Notes under the pieces: generated by a model
What the model saw: the letters and a program-made list of their open reading frames with translations, nothing else
The model's database searches: none
Told to the model about the DNA's origin: nothing
Shown: positions 8,484 through 31,293 of the stretch, piece by piece
Layout: every line of letters begins with the position of its first letter
Position numbering within the stretch: position 1 is the first letter of the stretch
Position numbers and translations under genes: made by a program
Assembly (NCBI RefSeq): GCF_003057885.1
Contig: NZ_QAGK01000004.1
Coordinates: 1 to 64,000 of the forward strand
DNA from: Oceaniglobus ichthyenteri
GTDB taxonomy: Bacteria; Pseudomonadota; Alphaproteobacteria; Rhodobacterales; Rhodobacteraceae
Reading direction: 5' to 3'
Length of the DNA: 64,000 nt

Positions 8484-8573
8484 GGAGACGTGGCCGAGTG
8501 GTCGAAGGCGCTCCCCTGCTAAGGGAGTAGGCCCGGAAGGGTCTCGAGGGTTCGAATCCCTTCGTCTCCGCCA
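8484..8573 (+). tRNA. tRNA-Ser (anticodon GCU), CCA encoded
   Basis: Class II tRNA with a long variable arm. Acceptor GGAGACG pairs with CGTCTCC, the anticodon loop is CTGCTAA within CTCCC/GGGAG, the T-loop is TTCGAAT, the discriminator is G8570 and CCA is at 8571-8573. Anticodon GCT reads AGC/AGU serine codons. Its 3' end points into the accessory block, making it a plausible attachment site for integrated DNA to its right. Confidence 0.96.
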
Positions 8574-8599
8574 CTTGCCCCCACGAAAGCGTTCTCCCG

Positions 8600-8621
8600 A
8601 TCCGGCTGTGGCCGGATTTTT
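8600..8621 (+). terminator. Rho-independent terminator after tRNA-Ser
   Basis: Stem ATCCGGC/GCCGGAT with a TGTG loop is followed by a run of T. It lies 27 bp after the tRNA CCA end in the right orientation to stop tRNA-Ser transcription. Confidence 0.8.
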
Positions 8622-8838
8622 CCGTTGTTTTCGAGGGTTATGCACGAGGAGCTGTTCACCGGCCCCGGTGCGAAGAGGGCCCAAAGCGTTCTCTACGGGC
8701 TGATATTCTCCGGACCTGTTGACTGCGCTGATTTAGTGAAGTTCCACAAGTGGATGATATTATTATGATATTCCGGTCACATGGCTTCATTTGGACAGCG
8801 GTCTCGTTTGGTTCAGCGGCGACTAGCGTCGGAATTTC

Positions 8839-8934
8839 TCAGGCCATTATCCTCTCTAGGCGTTGCTTCCGGCGCTCCCAATCCGGCATCACCCGGTCCA
8901 GCAGGTCAAAGAAAGCCGTGCCGTGGTGCGGCTC
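8839..8934 (-). pseudogene. C-terminal remnant of a YgjP/DUF45-type metallopeptidase
   Basis: Reading the minus strand in the frame next to the recombinase gives EPHHGTAFFDLLDRVMPDW and a basic tail ending at a stop at 8839. This matches the C-terminal pattern of YgjP (M48-like) proteins, where a His in a NHSxxFW-like segment precedes a MPDW-type block. Only about 31 codons remain and the HExxH core is absent. It is joined out of frame to the truncated recombinase, marking a deletion junction near 8935-8940. The 8622-8838 stretch beyond it shows no gene. Confidence 0.5.
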
Positions 8935-9268
8935 ACCCCATTCCGGTCAAATACCTCGACCAGCTTGGAAAAATCCATCAACGAGCGCGACAGGCGGTCG
9001 ATCTTGTAGACCACGACCACATCGACCAAGCCATCTTCGACGTCTGTGAGCAGCCTTTTCAGGTCCGGGCGTTCCAGCGTGCCGCCGGATATGCCGCCAT
9101 CATCATATTGATCGCGGACCAGCACCCAACCCTCCGACCGTTGGCTGGCGATATAGGCTTCACAGGCCTCCCGCTGGGCGTGAAGGCTGTTGAACTCCTG
9201 CTCAAGCCCTTCCTCGGAGGATTTGCGGGTGTAGACCGCGCAGCGCAGTTTGCGGACGATGGGTTTGG

Positions 9269-9272
<4 letters not shown>
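8889..9272 (-). pseudogene. Truncated serine recombinase (large resolvase family), N-terminus only
   Basis: Resolvase catalytic domain with the nucleophile region YTRKSSEEGLEQEFNSLHAQ, the strand DQYDDGGISGGTLERP, and the active-site Arg segment YKIDRLSRSLMDF. It stops at 127 aa; large serine recombinases are usually over 450 aa, so the zinc-ribbon and coiled-coil DNA-binding regions are missing. After VFDRNG the frame runs into unrelated sequence, giving a nonsense tail. Its ATG overlaps the DUF2924 stop, the normal order for these islands. It should be unable to recombine on its own. The real homology ends near 8940. Confidence 0.85.
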
Positions 9273-15601: not shown

Positions 15602-16134
15602 TGGCCGCCTTCCAATCCTTTTTCACCGATCACGGAGACCAACTCATGCCATTCCCAGAGAACACGCCCACGCCCGACGATCTGCCATCCCTGAGCGCAG
15701 GCGAAATCGCGGCCCTGCCAGTCGAATTGCTGGCAATCCTGCAGCGCGAGATCGATGAGCGTCTGAAGCGCGACAAGGCGGCCAAGACCCGCTTCGATGC
15801 CGGACTGGCCGTCCGCTACGCCAACCGCGCCGCTGAAGAACGCCAGGCTCAGGCCAAGGACACTGGTACGGTCCGGTTCGATGACGGCGATTTCACCGTG
15901 GTCGCCGATCTGCCGAAGCGGGTGGAATGGGATCAGGACCGGCTGGCCGCCATGGTCGCCCGTATCAGCGATGCAGGCGACGACCCCGCCGAATATGTCG
16001 ATCTCGCTTACAAGGTGCCCGAGCGCAAATACGCGGCCTGGCCCGAGGCCATCCGGCAGGGCTTCGAGCCTGCGCGCACCGTGAGGCCCGGCACGCTGAA
16101 GATCGAGATCGTCGCTCAAGGGGCCGATCAATGA
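15601..16134 (+). CDS. Phage-associated conserved hypothetical protein
   Basis: 177 aa from the overlapping ATG at 15601; an internal ATG at 15646 (MPFPEN) is an alternative start. The first half is acidic and Pro/Leu-rich with a helical EREIDERLKRDKAAK-like region, and the C-terminal half has VADLPKRVEWDQDRLAAMV and YKVPERKYAAWPEAIRQGF. It looks like a conserved prophage protein. Function is unknown. It overlaps the following gene by 4 bp (ATGA). Confidence 0.68.
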   Translation: MAAFQSFFTDHGDQLMPFPENTPTPDDLPSLSAGEIAALPVELLAILQREIDERLKRDKAAKTRFDAGLAVRYANRAAEERQAQAKDTGTVRFDDGDFTVVADLPKRVEWDQDRLAAMVARISDAGDDPAEYVDLAYKVPERKYAAWPEAIRQGFEPARTVRPGTLKIEIVAQGADQ

Positions 16135-16628
16135 GCCTGCTCGCCCATGCATCGGCCCCGTCGCAGGACCTGCCCAGCCTGATCGATCGTGCCGCGAGCA
16201 TGCTGTCGGGTGCGAAAACCGCCGCCGAGGTTCTCGAGGCGCGGGAGGTTGCCGGTCTGGCCTACGATGTTGCGAAACGCGCCGCTCGACTGCAACGCGC
16301 GAAGAGCGCTCATGATGATCTGATCGCCGCCGCGCACCGCGCCCAGGCAGATGCATTGGAAATCGAGGCCGCTGCCAAGCGGCGCCTGGCTGATGAATAC
16401 GATGCTGCGCAGGCGCGCGGCGACGTCGCCACCCGCCAGCGCAATCCCGGTTCTGTGGGGCATGTCGGCGATCACAACATGCCCCCGGCGACGGCCGCCG
16501 ATCTCGGCCTGCGTCGCGATCAGATCCATGAGGCACGCCAGGCGACGTTCGACTGGCAGGCTGCGCGCGACAGCCTTGTTGGCCGGATGTGCACTGCAAC
16601 CCTCGTGAATGATGTGGAGTCCTATTGA
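16131..16628 (+). CDS. Phage-associated helical protein (replication/regulatory-like)
   Basis: 165-aa, strongly helical protein. An Ala/Arg-rich coiled region spans residues ~20-90. It then contains DHNMPPATAADLGLRRDQIHEAR, a motif seen in phage or plasmid ParB-like and replication-associated proteins where a DLGL...IHEAR helix-turn-helix occurs. The last ~25 residues after this motif do not fit that pattern, so the original C terminus may be lost at a deletion that brought tail genes next to early genes. It starts and ends with 4-bp and 1-bp overlaps. Confidence 0.62.
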   Translation: MSLLAHASAPSQDLPSLIDRAASMLSGAKTAAEVLEAREVAGLAYDVAKRAARLQRAKSAHDDLIAAAHRAQADALEIEAAAKRRLADEYDAAQARGDVATRQRNPGSVGHVGDHNMPPATAADLGLRRDQIHEARQATFDWQAARDSLVGRMCTATLVNDVESY

Positions 16629-17065
16629 TGCTGACACTCGATCTGACGAATGCGCCAAGGTGGCATGACCTCGCGCCGGGCGTCCGGGTGCAACTGCGGC
16701 CACTGACCACGGCGCTGATGGTGGCAACGCGCAGTGACCCGGTGGTGGAAAGCCTGCCAGAGGAGGCCAGCGACGAAGAACGCGCCGTTGCCTTTGCCAA
16801 GGCGCTGGCGCGCCGTGCCGTGCTGGTCTGGGAGGGCATTGGCGACGCCGACGGCAATCCCCTCGACCCCAGCCCGGACGCCATCGACGCGCTGCTCGAT
16901 ATCTGGCCGATCTTCGAGGCTTTCCAGCTGACCTATGTCTCCAAGGGCCTGCTGCTGGAACAGGAAAAAAACGTCTCCGCGCTCTCGCCGACTGGTCCTT
17001 CGGCGGGGGCGAGCGCTACTGCGAGGGTTGCCAAGAGGTCTGCGCAGACTGCCCGGCGCGGCTGA
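16628..17065 (+). CDS. Phage tail assembly chaperone, zero-frame product
   Basis: 145-aa acidic protein with the character of phage tail assembly chaperones: N-terminal strand-rich segment (VRVQLRPLTTALMVATR), then helices with EEASDEERAVAFAKALARRA and DALLDIWPIFEAFQ. Such proteins coat the tape-measure protein during tail assembly and are encoded directly before it, as here. After codon 114 the zero frame gives a Ser/Ala-rich tail (SALSPTGPSAGASATARV). The ATG overlaps the previous stop. A canonical slippery heptamer lies at codons 113-115, see the frameshift entries. Confidence 0.75.
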   Translation: MLTLDLTNAPRWHDLAPGVRVQLRPLTTALMVATRSDPVVESLPEEASDEERAVAFAKALARRAVLVWEGIGDADGNPLDPSPDAIDALLDIWPIFEAFQLTYVSKGLLLEQEKNVSALSPTGPSAGASATARVAKRSAQTARRG

Positions 17066-17304
17066 ACCGACCGCTCACCCATGAGGGCTGGCAGGCCTGG
17101 GACCTCGTCGGTCGTCTCGGCGGGCAACTGCGCGTGCTGCCCGGCGCGGTGATCGGTTGGGACCTGTCGGCGGCACTGTCACTTGGTGATGCCCTCGGCA
17201 TCCCGCCTCTGGCCATGGCCGAACTGCTGCCCGTCATCGAGGCGGTGATGGTCGCCAAACTCAACGAACAGATGGATCATTCCCATGGCGGAAAAACGGG
17301 TTAG
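16628..17304 (+). CDS. Predicted -1 frameshift product (GT-like tail chaperone)
   Basis: If ribosomes slip -1 at 16966-16972, residues 1-114 continue as K-R-L-R-A-L-A-D-W and on to a stop at 17302-17304, giving a 225-aa fusion. The extension is clearly protein-like, not random: it carries a four-Cys cluster (YCEGCQEVCADCPARL), then EGWQAWDLVGRLGGQLRVLP and LGIPPLAMAELLPVIEAVM. Without a shift no good start opens this frame. The arrangement copies lambda G/GT, where the longer form recruits the tape-measure protein. It overlaps the tape-measure start by 20 bp. Expression is inference. Confidence 0.6.
16966..17016 (+). promoter_or_regulatory. Programmed -1 frameshift signal: slippery site and hairpin
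   Basis: The heptamer A-AAA-AAC at 16966-16972 is in the correct phase (X XXY YYZ) with the zero frame. A hairpin starts 6 nt after it: outer stem GCGCTC (16979-16984) with GAGCGC (17011-17016), inner stem CGCCG (16986-16990) with CGGCG (17001-17005), and a 10-nt loop. Spacing and GC-richness are what frameshift stimulators usually show. Directly visible in sequence; efficiency unknown. Confidence 0.7.
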
Positions 17305-17707
17305 CGTCCGCCTTGCGGCCGTGGGTGGGCGGCAGGTGCGCGCGGAGTTGGAAGGTGTCGGCGAGGCCGGGTCGCGCGGCTTCGGGCGGCTCAGCCGCGA
17401 GATGGAGGCGGCCAATGCCCGGATGGCGGCGTTCTCGCGTCGGGTCAAAGTTGCGGCCGCGGCCGCGGTTGCTGCTGCCACCGCCGCCGGTGTCGCCATG
17501 GTGCGCTCCGGGCTGCAAACCGTGGATGCGCAGGCCAAGCTCGCGGCCTCCCTTGCCACCACGGTGGCCTCGATCCAGGTGCTCGAACGCGCGGGCGATC
17601 TTGCCGGAGTATCCATGGGTCAGGTTGAACAGGCGACCGTTCAATTGACGCGGCGGCTCGCCGCAGATATTGCCCGCGCCGTGTCGCTCGGGCGGAGGGG
17701 CATGTGA
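17285..17707 (+). pseudogene. Tail tape-measure protein, collapsed to 140 aa
   Basis: The N terminus (VSVRLAAVGGRQVRAELEGV, then GFGRLSREMEAANARM) and the Ala-rich hydrophobic stretch at residues ~55-70 are those of phage tail tape-measure proteins, as is TVASIQVLERAGDLAGVSMG. These proteins normally run to several hundred or more residues because their length sets tail length. Here the frame ends after 140 aa, with VQLTRRLAAD followed by an unrelated-looking tail. An internal deletion appears to have joined the first part to the last few codons. A normal tail is not expected. The start lies inside the end of the chaperone -1 frame. Confidence 0.78.
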
Positions 17708-20496
17708 TGTTCCACGAAATCAGGTTTCCCGATGACATCAGCCGTGGCGCACGCGGCGGGCCGGAGCGGCGCACGCAGATCGTTGAGCTGGCCTCGGGCA
17801 GTGAGGAGCGCAACGCCAGTTGGGCCAATTCGCGGCGGCGCTACGATGTCGCTTACGGCATCCGCCGCGCCGACGATCTGGCGGCGGTCGTGGCCTTCTT
17901 CGAGGCGCGCAACGGGCGGCTGCACGGCTTTCGGTTCAAGGACTGGTCGGATTACAAATCCTGTCAGCCCTCGGGAGCGCCATCGCCCCTCGATCAGGTG
18001 ATCGGCATCGGCGATGGCACGACGACGACATTTCAGTTGCTGAAGAATTACACCTCTGGCGCACAGACCTGGATCCGAACGATCAGCAAGCCGGTGGCGG
18101 GGTCGGTGCGCATTGCCCTGGGAGGCGTCGAAACGGCCACGGGCTGGTCGCTCGACGCCACGACCGGGATGGTCAATTTTGGCACGGCCCCTGCACTGGG
18201 CGTGGCTATCACGGCAGGCTTTAAGTTCGACGTGCCGGTGCGGTTTGACAGCGACCTGCTGGATGTCACCCTCGACGTCGAGCGGCTGGGCTCGATCACC
18301 TCCGTTCCGCTGGTGGAGATCCGCATCCCGGTGCCTGTCGCTGCGCTTGAGCCTGAACCGGCAATCTTCACCTGGGAGGATGTGTTCACCGATCACAGGG
18401 CGATGGCAGGCGGCGCTGACTGGACCGGCTGGGGCACCAGCACCGCGCAGCCTGCCGAGGTGCCGCTGGAGTTCTTCCTGCGCAGCGTTTTGCCGGAGCT
18501 GCAGCCGGACGGGGCGGTGCTTGTCCTGGAAAGCCCCACGGGTGTGATGCACCTGCGCGGCCGCATGCAGCCGCCGCCGCGCTCTGTGCTGGCCAACTGG
18601 ACGCTGGATCTGGCCGATACCGTGGTCGAGCGGGGCAGGGCGGGCACCTATTGGGGCCAGATCCATCTCTGGGGCGACGTGGTCGAAGCGCCATCGGCCT
18701 CGCCGCCCTCGGTCAGCGTCGCGGCGGCCATCGGTGACACCCAGCTGACCCTGAAAGATGATGCTGACACGACGATGTTCCTCGCCACTGCGGGTCCCGG
18801 CGCCATCGCCGTGGTGCGCACCAATGCGACCGCCCCGGATTATCACCCGGCAGAGAGCCGGGAGGTGATCTATATTTCCTCGGTCAATCAGCGCACTCTG
18901 ACCCTGTCGCGGCCGCTGAGCATCGACGTGCCGGTGTCCAACCCGCTGGATTATCCCAGCGAGGTCAGCGATCCCTCGACAGTCACCCTGCTGGTCGGCT
19001 CCCTGCTGGCAGGTGACGCGGCCGAAGGTGCCACCCAGATCACGCTCGTCGACGCAGGGGGGCTCGCGGTCGGCGATTGGGTCTATCCCTCGACCTCCGA
19101 GTTACCCACGCCGACCGGCAACCAGTTTGCCGGTACGCTGGGGGCACTCCTCGACCCCGGGCAGGAGTTTGGCGACATCCTGATCAACGAGGAAATCCAC
19201 CGCATCACGGCGATTTCCGGCAACACGCTGACGCTGGCCGAACCGCTCGGCAAGAACAAGCTGACCGCCTGGAACGCCGCCTGCGTCAAGATCGATCCGA
19301 TCGAGAATGCCACGATCAAGGGCGGGCAATTCCTCGGCCAGGAAGACGGCAGTTCGGCTGAAGCCTGGGAGCATCAGTATATCTGGGCGCGCTATTGCGT
19401 GGGTTGCACGATCAGTGATGCCGCGTTCGACACCGATCCTGCTCGCAGCCTTGCGCAGCGGCGTATCGGTCAAGCGGTGCGCTCGGACACCGGCGCGGGC
19501 AACCTGATCACCCGTCTGACCATCGCCCAAGGGGGCAGCATCGCCGCGGGCGAGGGCTACGGCGTCTCGTTGCGTCGCGGTGAACGCAACACCATCGTCT
19601 CGCACAATGACATCGAGAAATGCCGTCACAGCATTGAGCTCTGGAGCACGACGGCAGGCTGCATCATCGAGCACAACAATGTTCGCAACGACACCTCCAG
19701 CAGCCTCGACACCCATGGCAGCTGGAACAAGGGGGTGGTGATCCGCAACAATACGATCTCGAACGACGGGCTGCTGCTCTCACCGGACCTTGGCGACCGG
19801 CCCGATGCAATCCGGATCGGCAACAACAAGTTCTGGCTGGACGAAGATATCCAGGTTCTGAACAACACCGTGACCGGCTACCGGGGCACTGCGATCAGCA
19901 TCGTGCCGGGATCGCGCAACGTGACTGTCGACGGGCTGGACTGCGACGACATCGACAGAATTCTGTCGATCGGTCGCAACAGCCGCCACCCGGGCCTCTA
20001 TTCCAGTGACATCGTGATCCGCAATGTCAGTGCCGATGATGTGCGAGACCGGCTGGCGGAGGTCGACAACACGTCGAACAGCACCCACGTCAAACGCCTG
20101 ACGCTGGAAGGTTGGACGGTGGGCGGCTCTGGCCTTGGCACCATCGACGATCCGGGCATCCTGAACTTCCGGCTGTTCTGGATCGAGGATCTGGTGCTCG
20201 ACAATGTTCGGCTCGAAGCCATCCACACACAGCAATACCACTATGCCTGGCATTTCGAGGACGTGGCGGGTCTGACCATCACTGATTGCTTCCAGCAGGG
20301 CGGCGAGCGCGGCATCCGCGCGACCCGCACCAGCGGTATTTCCGGCAGCATCACGATCAACAACTTGGAAGCCAATACACCGCATGTCTTCCGCCAGGTC
20401 AGCACCGGCTCCGGGGCGCTGAGCGTCACCCATGATGCCTCTTACACGCCGGTGATCGATGCGGCCGATGTCGCCATCACGCTGATCCCGGCCTGA
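17707..20496 (+). CDS. Distal tail protein (DUF2460) fused to a beta-helix domain
   Basis: 929-aa protein. Residues 1-~205 are DUF2460, the GTA g12-type distal tail component: MFHEIRFPDDISRGARGGP, ASWANSRRRYDVAYGIR, NGRLHGFRFKDWSDY and LERLGSITSVPLVEIRIP-like ending. The next ~120 residues hold another beta-rich domain with a WTGWGTSTAQ turn and LANWTLDLADTVVERG. Residues ~400-900 contain repeated Asn/Ile-rich rungs (for example NTIVSHNDIEKCRHSIEL, GCIIEHNNVRND, GVVIRNNTISND), the hallmark of a right-handed parallel beta-helix as in phage tailspikes and pectate-lyase-like folds. DUF2460 proteins are usually only about 210 aa, so this is a fusion of tail hub and receptor-binding or polysaccharide-binding parts. 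Confidence 0.82.
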   Translation: MFHEIRFPDDISRGARGGPERRTQIVELASGSEERNASWANSRRRYDVAYGIRRADDLAAVVAFFEARNGRLHGFRFKDWSDYKSCQPSGAPSPLDQVIGIGDGTTTTFQLLKNYTSGAQTWIRTISKPVAGSVRIALGGVETATGWSLDATTGMVNFGTAPALGVAITAGFKFDVPVRFDSDLLDVTLDVERLGSITSVPLVEIRIPVPVAALEPEPAIFTWEDVFTDHRAMAGGADWTGWGTSTAQPAEVPLEFFLRSVLPELQPDGAVLVLESPTGVMHLRGRMQPPPRSVLANWTLDLADTVVERGRAGTYWGQIHLWGDVVEAPSASPPSVSVAAAIGDTQLTLKDDADTTMFLATAGPGAIAVVRTNATAPDYHPAESREVIYISSVNQRTLTLSRPLSIDVPVSNPLDYPSEVSDPSTVTLLVGSLLAGDAAEGATQITLVDAGGLAVGDWVYPSTSELPTPTGNQFAGTLGALLDPGQEFGDILINEEIHRITAISGNTLTLAEPLGKNKLTAWNAACVKIDPIENATIKGGQFLGQEDGSSAEAWEHQYIWARYCVGCTISDAAFDTDPARSLAQRRIGQAVRSDTGAGNLITRLTIAQGGSIAAGEGYGVSLRRGERNTIVSHNDIEKCRHSIELWSTTAGCIIEHNNVRNDTSSSLDTHGSWNKGVVIRNNTISNDGLLLSPDLGDRPDAIRIGNNKFWLDEDIQVLNNTVTGYRGTAISIVPGSRNVTVDGLDCDDIDRILSIGRNSRHPGLYSSDIVIRNVSADDVRDRLAEVDNTSNSTHVKRLTLEGWTVGGSGLGTIDDPGILNFRLFWIEDLVLDNVRLEAIHTQQYHYAWHFEDVAGLTITDCFQQGGERGIRATRTSGISGSITINNLEANTPHVFRQVSTGSGALSVTHDASYTPVIDAADVAITLIPA

Positions 20497-20524
20497 TCCT
20501 CATGACCATTCCGGAGCCACGCCG

Positions 20525-21409
20525 ATGAAAGCTCTTTCGCCCGACCTGCAGGCCCATCTCGATGAGGGCACCACGACACTCGCCTGGTGCTGGCGGATCC
20601 TCCGCGCCGATGGCGTGACTTTCGGGTTCACCGACCATGATCTGACGCTTCGCTTTGACGGCACCGACTTCGAGCCGGAAAGCGGGCTGACGGCCTCCGA
20701 GGTCCGGTCCGGCTCGGACCTGTCCGTAGATGCCCAGGATGCCGAGGGTGTGCTGACCTCCGACCGGATCAGTGAGACCGACATTCTCGATGGCCGCTGG
20801 GACAATGCTGAGGTCGAGGTCTGGCGCGTGAACTGGGCCGACACCGCGCAACGGGTTCTGATGCGCCGCGGGGCCATCGGCCAGATCCGGCGAGGGCGGC
20901 TCGCCTTCGTCGCCGAGGTGCGATCACTGGCCCATACCTTGAGTCAGACGGTGGGGCGCACCTTCCAGGCGACCTGCGACGCCGACCTTGGCGATACGCG
21001 CTGTGGTATCGATCTGGAGGACCCCGCCTACAAGGGCACTGGGGCCGTCCTCGATGTCCTGCGCGACCGGACATTCACTGCCTCGGGGCTTGGCAGTTTT
21101 ACCTCTGGCTGGTTCACCTTCGGCACCGTCAAATGGACCAGCGGGGCCAATGCCGGGCGGCGAGCGGAGGTCATCGCACATGATGTCGCGGACGGCATTG
21201 GGGTGCTGACGCTGCTCGAAGCGCCGGTGCGGTCCATCGCCGAGAGTGACGGCTTCACCATCCGTGCTGGCTGCGACAAGCGCATGGAAACCTGTGGAAT
21301 GAAGTTCTCCAACACCGCCAATTTCCGGGGCTTCCCGCATATCCCCGGGCAGGACGCGGTCCTGCGCTACGCCACTAAGGACGGCGGACATGAGGGGGCG
21401 GTGCTTTGA
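20525..21409 (+). CDS. DUF2163 tail protein (GTA g13-like)
   Basis: 294-aa protein matching the family represented by GTA ORF g13. It starts with MKALSPDLQAHLDEGTTTLA, then TFGFTDHDLTLRFDG and FEPESGLTASEVRSGSDL, then CDADLGDTRCGIDL and, near the C terminus, GCDKRMETCGMKFSN, a Cys-rich block typical of the family and likely to bind an iron-sulfur cluster or metal. Structural studies of the Rhodobacter capsulatus GTA place g13 in the tail hub. It is between the g12-like and g14-like genes in the standard GTA order. Confidence 0.85.
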   Translation: MKALSPDLQAHLDEGTTTLAWCWRILRADGVTFGFTDHDLTLRFDGTDFEPESGLTASEVRSGSDLSVDAQDAEGVLTSDRISETDILDGRWDNAEVEVWRVNWADTAQRVLMRRGAIGQIRRGRLAFVAEVRSLAHTLSQTVGRTFQATCDADLGDTRCGIDLEDPAYKGTGAVLDVLRDRTFTASGLGSFTSGWFTFGTVKWTSGANAGRRAEVIAHDVADGIGVLTLLEAPVRSIAESDGFTIRAGCDKRMETCGMKFSNTANFRGFPHIPGQDAVLRYATKDGGHEGAVL

Positions 21410-21840
21410 ATGCTGCCAAATCACAGTGCGTTCTCAAGGTAGCGCGATCCTGGCTGGGCACGCCGTATCACGACCAGGCCAGCCTCCGGGGCGTCGGCTG
21501 CGACTGCCTTGGGTTGGCGCGGGGCGTCTGGCGCGAAATCGTCGGCCCCGAACCATTCCCGATTCCGCCCTACAGCCGCGACTGGGGCGAGACCGGGCCG
21601 CACGAGGTTCTCGCGGAGGGCGCGCGGCGCGTGATGATCGAGGTGGACCTTGTCTCGGCTGGTCCCGGCGCGCTGGTCCTGTTCCGCATGAGGCCGCGCG
21701 CCATCGCCAAACATGTCGGGATCCTGACCGGGCCTGACAGTTTTTTGCACGCCTATGAGCGCCTCGGCGTGATCGAAGAACCGCTCACCCCGTCCTGGCG
21801 GCGGCGCATCGCCTTCGCTTTCCTGTTTCCGCAACGCTGA
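21406..21840 (+). CDS. NlpC/P60-family peptidase (GTA g14-like tail protein)
   Basis: 144-aa cell-wall peptidase-like protein. The start is TTG at 21406, overlapping the previous stop (TTGA). The catalytic Cys lies in GCDCLGLARG (Cys34), a catalytic His is His103 in AKHVGILTG, and His115 follows in SFLHAYE. Members ride on the tail tip and locally digest peptidoglycan during DNA injection. Order g12-g13-g14-g15 is preserved. It is normal in length for the family and looks intact. Confidence 0.85.
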   Translation: MNAAKSQCVLKVARSWLGTPYHDQASLRGVGCDCLGLARGVWREIVGPEPFPIPPYSRDWGETGPHEVLAEGARRVMIEVDLVSAGPGALVLFRMRPRAIAKHVGILTGPDSFLHAYERLGVIEEPLTPSWRRRIAFAFLFPQR

Positions 21841-21849
21841 GATCTCGCC

Positions 21850-24800
21850 ATGGCCACACTCGTTCTTGGTGCCGCAGGTGCCGCCATTGGCGGCAGCATT
21901 GGCGGCGCAATTCTCGGCGTCAGCGCCGTCACCATCGGCGGTTTTATCGGCTCAACCATCGGCTCGGTGGTCGACAGCTGGATCATCTCGTCGCTCGCAC
22001 CGACCCAGCGCATCGAAGGCGCGCGGCTTGATAATTTGCGGATCACATCGTCGACTGAAGGGGCAGTGATCCCGCGGCTTTATGGCCGCATGCGGGTCGG
22101 CGGCAATATCCTATGGGCGACGGATTTCCGCGAAGAGACCAGCACGACCCGGCAGGGCGGCGGCAAAGGCGGCGGACCCAAAGTCACAACGACCGAATAT
22201 ATCTACTATGCTTCGTTTGCCGTGGCGCTGTCGGAGGGGCCGATCACCGGCATCGGGCGTATCTGGGCGGACGGCAAGCCGTTGGACACCGCCGGAATCA
22301 CCTGGCGCTGGTATCCGGGCGATGAGAGCCAGGCGGCCGATCCGTTCATTTCGGCCAAGATGGGCGCGGCCAACACGCCTGCCTATCGCGGCACGGCCTA
22401 TGTTATCTTTGAAGACCTTCCGCTGGGAACCTACGGCAACCGCATCCCGCAGCTGAGCTTCGAGGTGTTTCGCCCTCTGGCCGATCCCGACACCGCCGAG
22501 GGTCTGACCCGCGCCGTCACCATGATCCCGGCCTCTGGCGAGTTCGCCTATGCCACGCAGGGCATCCGGAAAGGCAGCAGCGGATCGCAGACCGCTGACA
22601 ATCTTAACGCATTGACCGACACTGCCGACATGGTGGTGGCGCTGGACCGGTTGCAGGCCATGGTGCCGAAGGTCGAGAGCGTCAGCCTCGTGGTGTCCTG
22701 GTTTGGCGATGATCTGCGCGCCGGGCACTGCCAGGTCCGGCCGAAAGTCGAACTGGCCGACAAGACCGCCAAGCCAAAAGCCTGGTCTGTCAACGGCGTG
22801 AACCGGGCATCGGCACATCTGGTCAGTCGCGATGGTGATAATCGTCCCAACTTTGGCGGCACGCCTGCGGATTTCACGGTGGTGCAGGCGATCCAGGAGA
22901 TGAGGTCGCGCGGGCTGCGGGTGACACTCTATCCGTTTCTGATGATGGACGTGGCGCCGGGCAACACGCTGCCCACCCCATATTCCGACAACGCCGCCGA
23001 GACCGGCCAGCCTGCGTTCCCCTGGCGGGGACGGATCACCTGTTCTCCGGCTGCGGGCTATGTCGGATCGATGGACAAGACCGCTCCGGCCGCCACTCAG
23101 GTCGCAGCGCTCTTTGGCAGCGCCAGCCCTGCAGATTTTGCCATATCGGGCGAAAGCGTCAGTTGGACCGGCGCGTCCGGCGACTGGGGCCTGCGCCGCA
23201 TGGTGCTGCATTACGCCTTTCTTTGCGCGGCGGCGGGCGGCGTTGATGCTTTTCTGATCGGGTCGGAGATGCCGGGACTGACGACGATCCGCTCGGGTGC
23301 CTCCACCTATCCGGCGGTGCAGGCGTTACGCGACCTGGCGGCGGATGTGCGCGCGATCCTTGGGGCGTCGACGAAGATTGGATATGCGGCCGACTGGTCG
23401 GAATATTTCGGGCACCAGCCGGGTGACGGCAGCGGTGATGTGTTCTTCCACCTCGATCCGCTCTGGGCCGATCCGGAGATCGATTTTATCGGCATCGACA
23501 ATTACATGCCGCTGTCGGACTGGCGGGATGGGTTTGACCATGCCGATGCGCAGGAGGGTTGGCCCGCGATCTACGACCGTGCCTACCTGCAGGGGAACAT
23601 TGTAGGCGGCGAAGGCTTCGAGTGGTTCTATGCCAGCGCCGCCGAACGTTCAGCGCAGATCCGGACGCCGATCACCGACGGCACGGCAGGAAAGCCCTGG
23701 GTGTTCCGCAACAAGGATCTGAAAGCTTGGTGGTCGAACGCACATTACAACCGCCCGGGTGGGATGGAAGGCAGCACGCCGACGGCTTGGGTGCCGCAAT
23801 CCAAGCCGATCTGGTTCACCGAGCTTGGCTGCCCCGCCATTGACCGCGGCACCAACCAGCCCAACGTCTTCTTCGACCCGAAGTCGTCCGAGAGCTTCAC
23901 GCCGCATTTCTCACGGGGCTGGCGGGATGATGCGATCCAGCGCGCCTACCTCGAGGCGACATATCTCTGGTGGGGTGACGCGGCGAACAACCCGGTCTCG
24001 TCAGTCTACGGCGGCCGGATGGTGCACTTGCCTGAATGTGCCGCCTGGACCTGGGACGCGCGACCCTATCCGTATTTTCCCGAACTCACCGATGTCTGGG
24101 CCGATGGGCCAAACTGGCGGCTCGGCCACTGGCTGACCGGACGGCTTGGCGCGGTGTCGCTGGCAGCGCTTGCCCGCCACCTCTGCCTGCGGGCCGGAAT
24201 GCCGGAGGCGAGGGTCGACGTCACTGGCCTCTGGGGCGCGGTCGAGGGCTACGCCATCGGCGCGCTGGAAAGCCCGCGCGCCTCGATCACCACGCTGTCG
24301 CGGCACTTTGGCTTCGACGCGGTCGAGACCGAGGGGGTGATCCGGTTTGTCATGCGCGGCCGTGGATCCGTCACCACCATCGTACCTGACGATCTTGTTG
24401 CCGCTCGCGAAGGCGACGTGCTGGAACTGACGCGCGGCCAGGAAACCGAACTGCCGCAGGCGCTGAAGTGGCAGATCGCGCGGGCCGATGAGGATTACGA
24501 CGCGGCCCTCGTCGAGGCCCGGCGCATCACGGTGGACACGACGCGCATCGCGTCCGAGTCCTTCCCGATGGCCGTACCGCCCGAGGAGGCCGAACGCCGC
24601 TGCCGCCGCGCGCTGATGGAGGCGTGGGTGGGGCGCGAGACCGCGGCGTTTCGTCTGCCGCCCTCGCGCCTCGCGCTTGACCCGGCCGATGCGATCCGGC
24701 TGGAGCATGACGGGCGGTTGGTCGATCTGCGGCTCGTCTCCATTGCCGACGCCGAGGCGCGGGGCATCGAGGCGGTGCGCCAGGACCGGGCGACCTACGA

Positions 24801-25854
24801 CATGCCGCCCGGCGATCCCCGCGCGGCGTCGCTGACGCGCGCCGTGGTGTTCGGCGCACCGGATGCGGTGCTGATGGATCTGCCGCAGCTGACCGAGGAC
24901 CAGCCCGCGCATCGGCCGTTTGTCGTGGCGAATGCCGTACCCTGGCCCGGCGAGATGGCGGTGTTCCGCAGCCCCTCGACCGATGGCTTCGAGCTGCTGA
25001 CCACGTTCGGCAGTCGCGCCCGGATCGGGGTGCTGGTCTCCGACCTCTATCCGGGCCCCACCTCGCGCTTCGATCTCGGCAATGCTCTGGTGGTCGATCT
25101 GCTGACCGGCACGCTGGAAAGCGTCACGGACCTGACCTTGTTCGGCCGGGCGAACGCGCTGGCCATCGAGAGCGCGCCCGGCGTCTGGGAGATCGTCCAG
25201 GCGGGCGCGGCCGAGCTTCTGGCGCCGGGCCGGTATCGTCTGACCCGGCTCCTGCGGGGCCAGCGCGGCACCGAGGGTGCCATGGGCAACCCGGCGCCTG
25301 CTGGCGCGCGGGTCGTCGTACTCGACGACAGCCTCGCATCGCTGCCCATCACCGAGGCTGATCTCAGCATCCCGTGGAACTGGCGCATCGGACCAGCCAG
25401 CCGTCCGGTCAGCGACGAGACCTATGTGGGGCAGACCTTCACGCCTGAGGGCGTCGGGCTGCGGCCCTTCTCCGTCGCACATGTCGATCAGCCGTGGCGT
25501 CGCGCCCGCACGCCCGGCGACCTGACCATCCGCTGGACGCGCCGGTCCCGCGCGCTCGCGGCCGACAGCTGGGGCGCGGTGGAGGTGCCGCTGGCCGAGG
25601 GTGAGCAGGGACCCTGGCCCCAGTGGGGCCAGGCAAGCCCTGCGAACGAAGCCTACGAGGTCGAGATCCTCGACGGCGCGACCGTGAAGCGGGTGCTGAG
25701 CACGGCCACCACCAGTGCGGTTTACACCGCCGCCGTGCAGACCGCCGACTGGGGCGCGCCGCTTGGCCCCGGCGACACGCTCGACATCCGCATCGTCCAG
25801 CTCTCCGCCCTCGTGGGGCGGGGCGCGCCCAAGACCGTCACGCTCACGTTCTGA
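21850..25854 (+). CDS. GTA g15-type host-specificity / baseplate protein (megatron)
   Basis: 1334-aa protein. The N-terminal ~45 residues form a Gly/Ala-rich hydrophobic segment (GGSIGGAILGVSAVTIGGFI) as in GTA g15. Residues ~60-130 resemble the phage lambda J-like start (LRITSSTEGAVIPRLYGRMR). A TIM-barrel, glycosidase-like domain lies around residues 420-720 (VDAFLIGSEMPGLTTIR, then WADPEIDFIGIDNYMPLSDW). The C-terminal ~500 residues contain the tail-tip beta domains, ending LGPGDTLDIRIVQLS. It would form the hub tip that contacts the host surface. It follows the NlpC-like gene by 9 bp and appears full length. Confidence 0.9.
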   Translation: MATLVLGAAGAAIGGSIGGAILGVSAVTIGGFIGSTIGSVVDSWIISSLAPTQRIEGARLDNLRITSSTEGAVIPRLYGRMRVGGNILWATDFREETSTTRQGGGKGGGPKVTTTEYIYYASFAVALSEGPITGIGRIWADGKPLDTAGITWRWYPGDESQAADPFISAKMGAANTPAYRGTAYVIFEDLPLGTYGNRIPQLSFEVFRPLADPDTAEGLTRAVTMIPASGEFAYATQGIRKGSSGSQTADNLNALTDTADMVVALDRLQAMVPKVESVSLVVSWFGDDLRAGHCQVRPKVELADKTAKPKAWSVNGVNRASAHLVSRDGDNRPNFGGTPADFTVVQAIQEMRSRGLRVTLYPFLMMDVAPGNTLPTPYSDNAAETGQPAFPWRGRITCSPAAGYVGSMDKTAPAATQVAALFGSASPADFAISGESVSWTGASGDWGLRRMVLHYAFLCAAAGGVDAFLIGSEMPGLTTIRSGASTYPAVQALRDLAADVRAILGASTKIGYAADWSEYFGHQPGDGSGDVFFHLDPLWADPEIDFIGIDNYMPLSDWRDGFDHADAQEGWPAIYDRAYLQGNIVGGEGFEWFYASAAERSAQIRTPITDGTAGKPWVFRNKDLKAWWSNAHYNRPGGMEGSTPTAWVPQSKPIWFTELGCPAIDRGTNQPNVFFDPKSSESFTPHFSRGWRDDAIQRAYLEATYLWWGDAANNPVSSVYGGRMVHLPECAAWTWDARPYPYFPELTDVWADGPNWRLGHWLTGRLGAVSLAALARHLCLRAGMPEARVDVTGLWGAVEGYAIGALESPRASITTLSRHFGFDAVETEGVIRFVMRGRGSVTTIVPDDLVAAREGDVLELTRGQETELPQALKWQIARADEDYDAALVEARRITVDTTRIASESFPMAVPPEEAERRCRRALMEAWVGRETAAFRLPPSRLALDPADAIRLEHDGRLVDLRLVSIADAEARGIEAVRQDRATYDMPPGDPRAASLTRAVVFGAPDAVLMDLPQLTEDQPAHRPFVVANAVPWPGEMAVFRSPSTDGFELLTTFGSRARIGVLVSDLYPGPTSRFDLGNALVVDLLTGTLESVTDLTLFGRANALAIESAPGVWEIVQAGAAELLAPGRYRLTRLLRGQRGTEGAMGNPAPAGARVVVLDDSLASLPITEADLSIPWNWRIGPASRPVSDETYVGQTFTPEGVGLRPFSVAHVDQPWRRARTPGDLTIRWTRRSRALAADSWGAVEVPLAEGEQGPWPQWGQASPANEAYEVEILDGATVKRVLSTATTSAVYTAAVQTADWGAPLGPGDTLDIRIVQLSALVGRGAPKTVTLTF

Positions 25855-28440: not shown

Positions 28441-28920
28441 TCAGGCAGCAGCGTAGCTGGTAAAGACCTCGTTCGATCCGTCGCGCCGGATCAGAAACAC
28501 GTCGTAGGCCTCGCGCTGGCTTTCCGGTCCCATCCCGGGCGAGCCGTAGGGCATGCCTGGCACTGCGAGGCCGACCGCGTCGGGGCGTTCCAGCAGGAGA
28601 CGGCGAATGTCGGCAACAGGGACGTGACCCTCGATAATGTAACCATCCACACGACCCGTATGGCAGGAGACCATCTCCTGCGGGATGCCGTTGTCCAGCT
28701 TGTAGCGCATCAGAAGCGTCCCGGCGCTCGCCTCGGTCGTGACGGCGAAGCCGTCGTTCTCGAGGATCTCGATCCAGGCCGAGCAGCAGCCGCAGTTGGG
28801 GTCCTTCATCACGTGGATCGCCGGACCGGCGCCTTGCGCCAGAGCCCTCAAGGGCGACGCAGCCGCCAGCGCAGCTGTGCCGATCAGGAGCTTGCGGCGG
28901 GAAAACATGTCTTGGGTCAT
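28441..28920 (-). CDS. DUF411 protein, metal-resistance associated, Tat-exported
   Basis: 159-aa exported protein. A twin-arginine-type signal (SRRKLLIGTAALAAASPLRA) is followed by the DUF411 core: VMKDPNCGCCSAWIEILE with a CGCC motif, then MVSCHTGRVDGYIIEGHVP and VGLAVPGMPYGSPGM. DUF411 proteins occur with copper resistance genes, probably as periplasmic copper binding or handling proteins. It lies next to the CopA-type ATPase in the same orientation, starting with an AAAGGA box. Biochemical function of the family is not settled. Confidence 0.85.
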   Translation of the reverse strand: MTQDMFSRRKLLIGTAALAAASPLRALAQGAGPAIHVMKDPNCGCCSAWIEILENDGFAVTTEASAGTLLMRYKLDNGIPQEMVSCHTGRVDGYIIEGHVPVADIRRLLLERPDAVGLAVPGMPYGSPGMGPESQREAYDVFLIRRDGSNEVFTSYAAA

Positions 28921-28959
28921 CTGATGTTCCTTTCGAGGTTGGATGTGTGGGCTGGCAGA

Positions 28960-31293
<2,334 letters not shown>

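Follow-up and report, generated by a model that had tools for sequence, protein, structure and literature searches.

A predicted programmed -1 frameshift in the tail assembly chaperone gene of a decayed prophage of Oceaniglobus ichthyenteri

Introduction

How can a tail assembly chaperone be made from a coding sequence that is divided between two overlapping reading frames? The question arises at a locus of Oceaniglobus ichthyenteri (Rhodobacteraceae; assembly GCF_003057885.1), within a stretch of 64,000 nucleotides (contig NZ_QAGK01000004.1, positions 1 to 64,000 of the forward strand) referred to below as the window, where a phage-type chaperone gene carries a slippery heptamer and overlaps a second open stretch in the -1 frame. 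The answer favoured here, to which a probability of about 0.93 is given, is that tRNA-Lys and tRNA-Asn slip by -1 on A_AAA_AAC, with a stem as stimulator, in a tail chaperone cassette of the lambda G/GT type. Ribosomes would start at position 16628 and mostly read to 17065, giving a short chaperone (G), while a minority would slip back by one base at the heptamer, with the help of the stem that opens 7 nt further on, and would continue in the -1 frame to 17304 to give a longer chaperone (GT). On the lambda model, the role of the G part would be to bind the tape measure protein, and that of the extension to recruit tail tube protein. The comparisons below show the anatomy of the sequence, the conservation of the site throughout the family, and the resemblance of both halves to tail chaperones. 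We infer the occurrence of slippage and its rate, as well as metal binding by the extension and the role of the products in assembly.

Two overlapping reading frames

The 0-frame open reading frame (ORF) begins with an ATG that shares one base with the preceding stop (TGATG), and its product up to the heptamer ends in ...LLLEQEKN. A sequence-only reading of this DNA had placed an in-phase A-AAA-AAC at 16966-16972, and this is borne out, the 0 frame reading GAA AAA AAC at that point (Table 1); AAAAAAC occurs nowhere else on the + strand of the window. After a one-base slip, the codons would be CGT CTC CGC ..., the translation of the -1 frame from the junction being RLRALADWSFGGGERYCEGCQEVCADCP... 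Tandem slippage would give a junction that is mostly K114-N115-R116; for K115-R116, the A site would have to be decoded as AAA.

The -1 frame is open over 16738-17304. The extension of 110 codons with a four-Cys cluster described by the same reading is confirmed, all four Cys lying within its first 27 residues and being invariant in 33/33 aligned extensions. Its statement that this frame lacks a good start also holds: no ATG is found in the -1 frame upstream of 17215, the start-like codons between the junction and that position are GTG 17134 and GTG 17149, and GTG 17134 is not kept as a start among relatives.

Conservation of the heptamer among relatives

Relatives were collected through the protein encoded downstream of the junction, the heptamer itself not being a search criterion, and the best 80 matches per scan were taken. 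This gave 506 sequences, six of which have no junction (L349, L424, L439, L159, L138, and L496). The 504 matches obtained correspond to 338 distinct junctions of 140 bases, from which four off-target pattern matches (one in L311, three in L313) were taken out by hand, leaving 334; these share a common ancestry and the counts below are not counts of independent events. Fewer than 80 open codons precede the heptamer in six of them, owing to the end of the locus (L265, L017, and L136), an assembly gap (L199), a stop (L231), or a sequence that is out of frame further up (L368).

A heptamer of the form X_XXY_YYZ stands at the exact homologous point in 332 of the 334 distinct junctions, as A_AAA_AAC (278), G_GGA_AAC (27), A_AAA_AAA (14), A_AAA_AAG (12), or A_AAA_AAT (1), the two others reading ACAAAAC (L376) and AAAGAAC (L069). 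In a set of 30 representatives with at most 82% mutual identity over the 55 bases past the heptamer, picked by name order from + strand loci and in which L376 and L069 are grouped beneath other representatives, all 30 have a slippery heptamer, in four versions. Of the 185 loci in which both halves could be identified, 184 have the second half at -1 relative to the first; L199, the locus with an assembly gap, is the exception. An ATG, GTG, or TTG of the -1 frame occurs between -150 and +45 nt of the junction in 67/334 cases, and an ATG in 23/334. The sequence-only reading had named homologues without the heptamer, or with an independent start for the second frame, as what would speak against it; the 332 heptamers and 67 start-like codons do not follow that pattern, and its proposal of a lambda G/GT-type -1 frameshift in the chaperone gene is strongly supported. 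The extension is present in 92 of the 394 genomes searched in the same family, the genome of the window being counted. The heptamer is A_AAA_AAA in a Synechococcus phage and A_AAA_AAC in a faecal phage contig. In one branch of relatives (L012, L289, L292, L293, L302, and L315), the heptamer and the extension are kept, but the chaperone differs in its N-terminal part, which looks as though it had been exchanged.

The codons around the heptamer are coordinated with it. The Glu codon that precedes it is GAG at all 27 GGA sites and GAA at 303 of the 305 AAA sites, whereas GAG is commoner than GAA upstream in the same ORFs (1623 vs 878). Likewise, a Lys middle codon is AAA in 305/306 cases, compared with 171/737 for the Lys codons that these ORFs have upstream. 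This codon choice points to selection acting on the RNA.

The downstream stem

Within the 50 bases past the heptamer, a 12-bp stem opening after 7 nt is predicted, with a folding energy of -23.1 kcal/mol. The hairpin proposed by the earlier reading (a 6-nt spacer followed by a two-part structure at 16979-17016) is retained as a hairpin, with a spacer of 7 nt and one continuous 12-bp helix (16980-16991/17000-17011). Taken alone, the stem of the window is unremarkable, 24 of 200 dinucleotide shuffles folding equally well. Synonymous resampling of the -1 frame codons over the 48 bases past the heptamer, under two codon controls that both leave the 0-frame protein free to change, gives, for the window, p = 0.037 with codons pooled from the 30 relatives and p = 0.062 with the codons of the gene itself. 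With pooled codons, stability lies above the mean in 29/30 representatives and reaches p < 0.05 in 17/30 (mean z -1.8); with own codons, the figures are 28/30 and 16/30 (mean z -1.8). In scans along each gene, a median of 1.2% of the 214 windows exceed the stem in stability, as do 8/214 in the gene studied here. A stem opens 4-11 nt past the heptamer in 326 of the 334 junctions, a count made without a control.

Base-pair covariation of the stem in the 30 representatives does not exceed that of shuffles (0.158 observed vs 0.160 shuffled). Shifting the 3' partners by one column gives more two-sided changes, and relatives may therefore use slightly different stems. The stem is taken as likely.

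Protein families of the two halves

The first half belongs to PHROG 313, tail assembly chaperone (phrog_313, E-value 1.6e-21), and finds no family in a Pfam scan. The second half matches Pfam DUF7697 (PF24752) and phrog_11212. The DUF7697 match covers residues 55-106 of the extension, beginning at GTG 17134, and 32 of the 33 extensions scanned match this family, which is accordingly assigned to the second half of the frameshift extension rather than to a free-standing protein; DUF7697 is not mentioned in the literature searched. The GTG at the start of DUF7697 in the window may be taken as a start by gene callers.

The four-Cys cluster is likely a metal site. A structure model of the extension has a predicted local distance difference test (pLDDT) score of 92.5 and suggests a well-folded domain. 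Its best viral fold match is a tape measure chaperone (E-value 2.1e-3, none being under 0.001), fold searches of the PDB give no confident match, and an NCBIfam scan of five ORFs gives no matches. Both halves thus resemble tail chaperones.

Related systems in phages

Within the phage collection, matches to the first half occur in 13 records and matches to the second in 14. Eleven matching records are phages of Rhodobacter capsulatus, in which two features named tail assembly chaperone lie beneath the match. The long form is annotated as a two-piece joined coding sequence (CDS) in all four examined, RcKemmy, RcKai, RcBaka, and RcKvothe. Both halves in these and other RcC-cluster phages are homologous to those of the window (43-45% and 47% identity), with the same junction residue, a CDS joined at -1, and tape measure and tail-tip genes next; RcKemmy also has a stem at a similar distance from the heptamer. 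The RcC phages differ from the window in their heptamer, which is G_GGA_AAC in all four examined, and in having been isolated on R. capsulatus, whereas the cassette of the window belongs to a prophage remnant. The heptamer of phage lambda, G_GGA_AAG, differs from the A_AAA_AAC of the window.

As described in the portion of PMC8601537 drawn on here, the chaperone genes of most phages treated there have the usual programmed frameshift, which is not clear in RcZahn. In lambda G/GT, as would be the case in the window, low-level -1 slippage occurs near the end of the chaperone gene and an extension is read in the new frame; no four-Cys extension is described for lambda in the part of the review PMC5009743 consulted. 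Acinetobacter phage Loki has an AAAAAAC motif that was likewise proposed for a chaperone frameshift (gp12/gp13), with the difference that this motif is said to adjoin the stop of the first ORF (PMC5313236, in part), whereas the 0 frame of the window continues for 30 codons. The Loki chaperone is also a weak fold match of the extension (E-value 0.48).

Alternative explanations

The A7 run of the window could also be a site for transcriptional slippage, in which the RNA polymerase adds one A and some mRNAs carry both halves in one frame, and a run of seven or eight A occurs in 305 of the 334 junctions. The 27 junctions with G_GGA_AAC have a run of only three A, and neither the coordinated GAG, which preserves X_XXY_YYZ, nor a stem would be needed by a polymerase, which makes this explanation improbable. 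Still less probable is an internal start of the -1 frame, for example at GTG 17134, making the extension a separate gene as in gene transfer agents (GTAs). Two phage records do annotate a separate short ORF in the -1 frame beginning 120 nt past the junction, and residue 55, at which the DUF7697 match starts, is that GTG. However, a start-like codon is present at that residue in 123 of the 301 loci with the motif (33 more are without it), a Shine-Dalgarno core accompanies eight of the 123, the product would miss the four invariant Cys, and the conserved heptamer would be left unexplained.

The decay of the surrounding prophage could suggest a chaperone gene broken by a chance frameshift mutation. 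The same -1 arrangement recurs, however, in the second prophage copy on contig C10 and across relatives, isolated phages included, so that this explanation is refuted and has practically no weight. Ribosomal slippage on the heptamer, aided by the stem, is the reading retained.

The choice of slippery codons

AAC-ending heptamers (A_AAA_AAC or G_GGA_AAC) account for 305 of the 334 junctions and AAG-ending ones for 12, whereas AAG is presented as the strong shifter in Escherichia coli in the part of PMC5009743 consulted. If slippage is efficient, alphaproteobacterial ribosomes and tRNAs might follow a different slip code, nearer to that of mammalian ribosomes and haloarchaeal viruses, but this is a speculative and rather unlikely proposal. 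The C after AA may also be dictated by the proteins, as it serves an Asn codon in one frame and an Arg codon in the other. In the genome, 36 tRNA genes were found, with one tRNA-Lys (TTT) and one tRNA-Asn (GTT). A second tRNA-Lys (CTT), considered as a cause of the avoidance of AAG, was not found among these 36 genes, although the draft may miss some.

Genomic setting

The window holds a decayed prophage of the siphophage type (Table 1). A second copy lies on contig C10 of the same genome, with 95% identity in the first half and the same junction sequence, A_AAA_AAC included; its 140 bases are identical to those of L362, under which it is counted. The genes of this copy follow the order head protease, capsid, terminator (phrog_4204), phrog_290 protein, chaperone, 721-aa tape measure (phrog_8462, E-value 3e-166), and tail tip. 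The phrog_290 protein, called minor tail protein, is taken as the tail tube because of its place, at which RcC phages have a gene so annotated. The chaperone gene sits there between the phrog_290 and tape measure genes, both of which are remnants in the window. An IS110-type transposase lies between the protease and capsid genes of this copy (L003 1055-2287) and, because it stands among the head genes, the C10 prophage may be defective too.

Table 1. Features of the prophage remnant and of its chaperone cassette
Feature	Position	Strand	Remarks
0-frame tail assembly chaperone ORF (G-like)	16628..17065	+	145 codons if without slippage
Slippery heptamer A_AAA_AAC	16966..16972	+	0-frame GAA AAA AAC, codons 16964-16972
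Spacer, 7 nt	16973..16979	+	
Predicted stimulatory hairpin	16980..17011	+	12-bp stem 16980-16991 / 17000-17011, 8-nt loop
-1 frame extension (T-like)	16972..17304	+	110 codons + TAG at 17302-17304
Four-Cys cluster CxxC-x3-CxxC of the extension	17020..17052	+	
Fusion ORF: upstream gene + final ~30 codons of the gene preceding the chaperone (tail tube, from its position)	16131..16628	+	
Tape measure remnant, 140 codons	17285..17707	+	phrog_8462
Tail-tip genes: DUF2460 with beta-helix, Gp84_N/BR0599, NlpC/P60, GTA_TIM protein	17704..25854	+	

Compared with the 721-codon tape measure gene of C10, the remnant of the window has an internal deletion of about 580 codons with both ends in frame, and the homology of the fusion ORF, whose start codon is placed by reading the sequence, to the C10 copy begins at 16539. 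Both deletions preserve a reading frame, giving a mini tape measure and a tail tube fusion. Among the matches listed for 394 genomes of the family, no other genome spans the tape measure deletion junction well (base ~100 of the query; longest overrun 1-106), and a conserved, domesticated mini tape measure is thus unsupported. None of the seven upstream ORFs scanned between 10059 and 16625 matches a head family. With the tail tube and tape measure genes largely lost, the cassette is hardly able to build a tail here.

The sequence-only reading had seen in this module a GTA-like one, a view that is not upheld. The GTA chaperones of this genome (PF11836 and PF09550, each matched once in the genome) map to 175.9-176.4 kb of contig C35, no match to either family appears in a Pfam scan of the window proteins, and the head-tail cluster of the window is incomplete, with most of its tail tube and tape measure genes deleted. 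On C35, as read from the sequence, the two chaperones are separate genes, the second having its own ATG, which overlaps the preceding stop (ATGCCTAG), and no heptamer was seen by reading at their join. In the R. capsulatus GTA (RcGTA), g10 and a second chaperone gene (PF11836 and PF09550) occupy the same place in the gene order, with presumably the same role (PMC11409702, in part). The tail-tip genes of the window prophage resemble those of RcGTA, as do those of RcC phages, and the module looks GTA-like because RcC phages and RcGTA share tail genes, which are listed in the part of PMC8601537 consulted. The novelty formerly seen in a frameshifted chaperone beside GTA-like tail genes also falls away, this arrangement being already annotated in RcC phages.

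Elsewhere in the window, within 8484-9272, a tRNA-Ser (GCT) gene is followed by a short minus-strand ORF with a resolvase N-terminal domain only (PF00239, E-value 8e-24), which may be a disrupted integrase from a mobile element. Directly past the prophage tail genes, the minus strand at 28441-31293 encodes a heavy-metal P-type ATPase (E1-E2_ATPase, YHS, and HMBD) and a DUF411 protein.

Significance

The kind of cassette described here is known and already annotated as a joined gene in the RcC phage relatives. Within the searches made, the new elements are the scale of the conservation test, the coordination of the heptamer with the codon preceding it, and the placing of DUF7697 in a frameshift extension. 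Selection maintains the cassette in a large clade of phages and prophages, and an annotation that starts inside the extension loses its four-Cys part. The natural variants of the heptamer at one homologous position provide material for the study of slippage rules outside E. coli.
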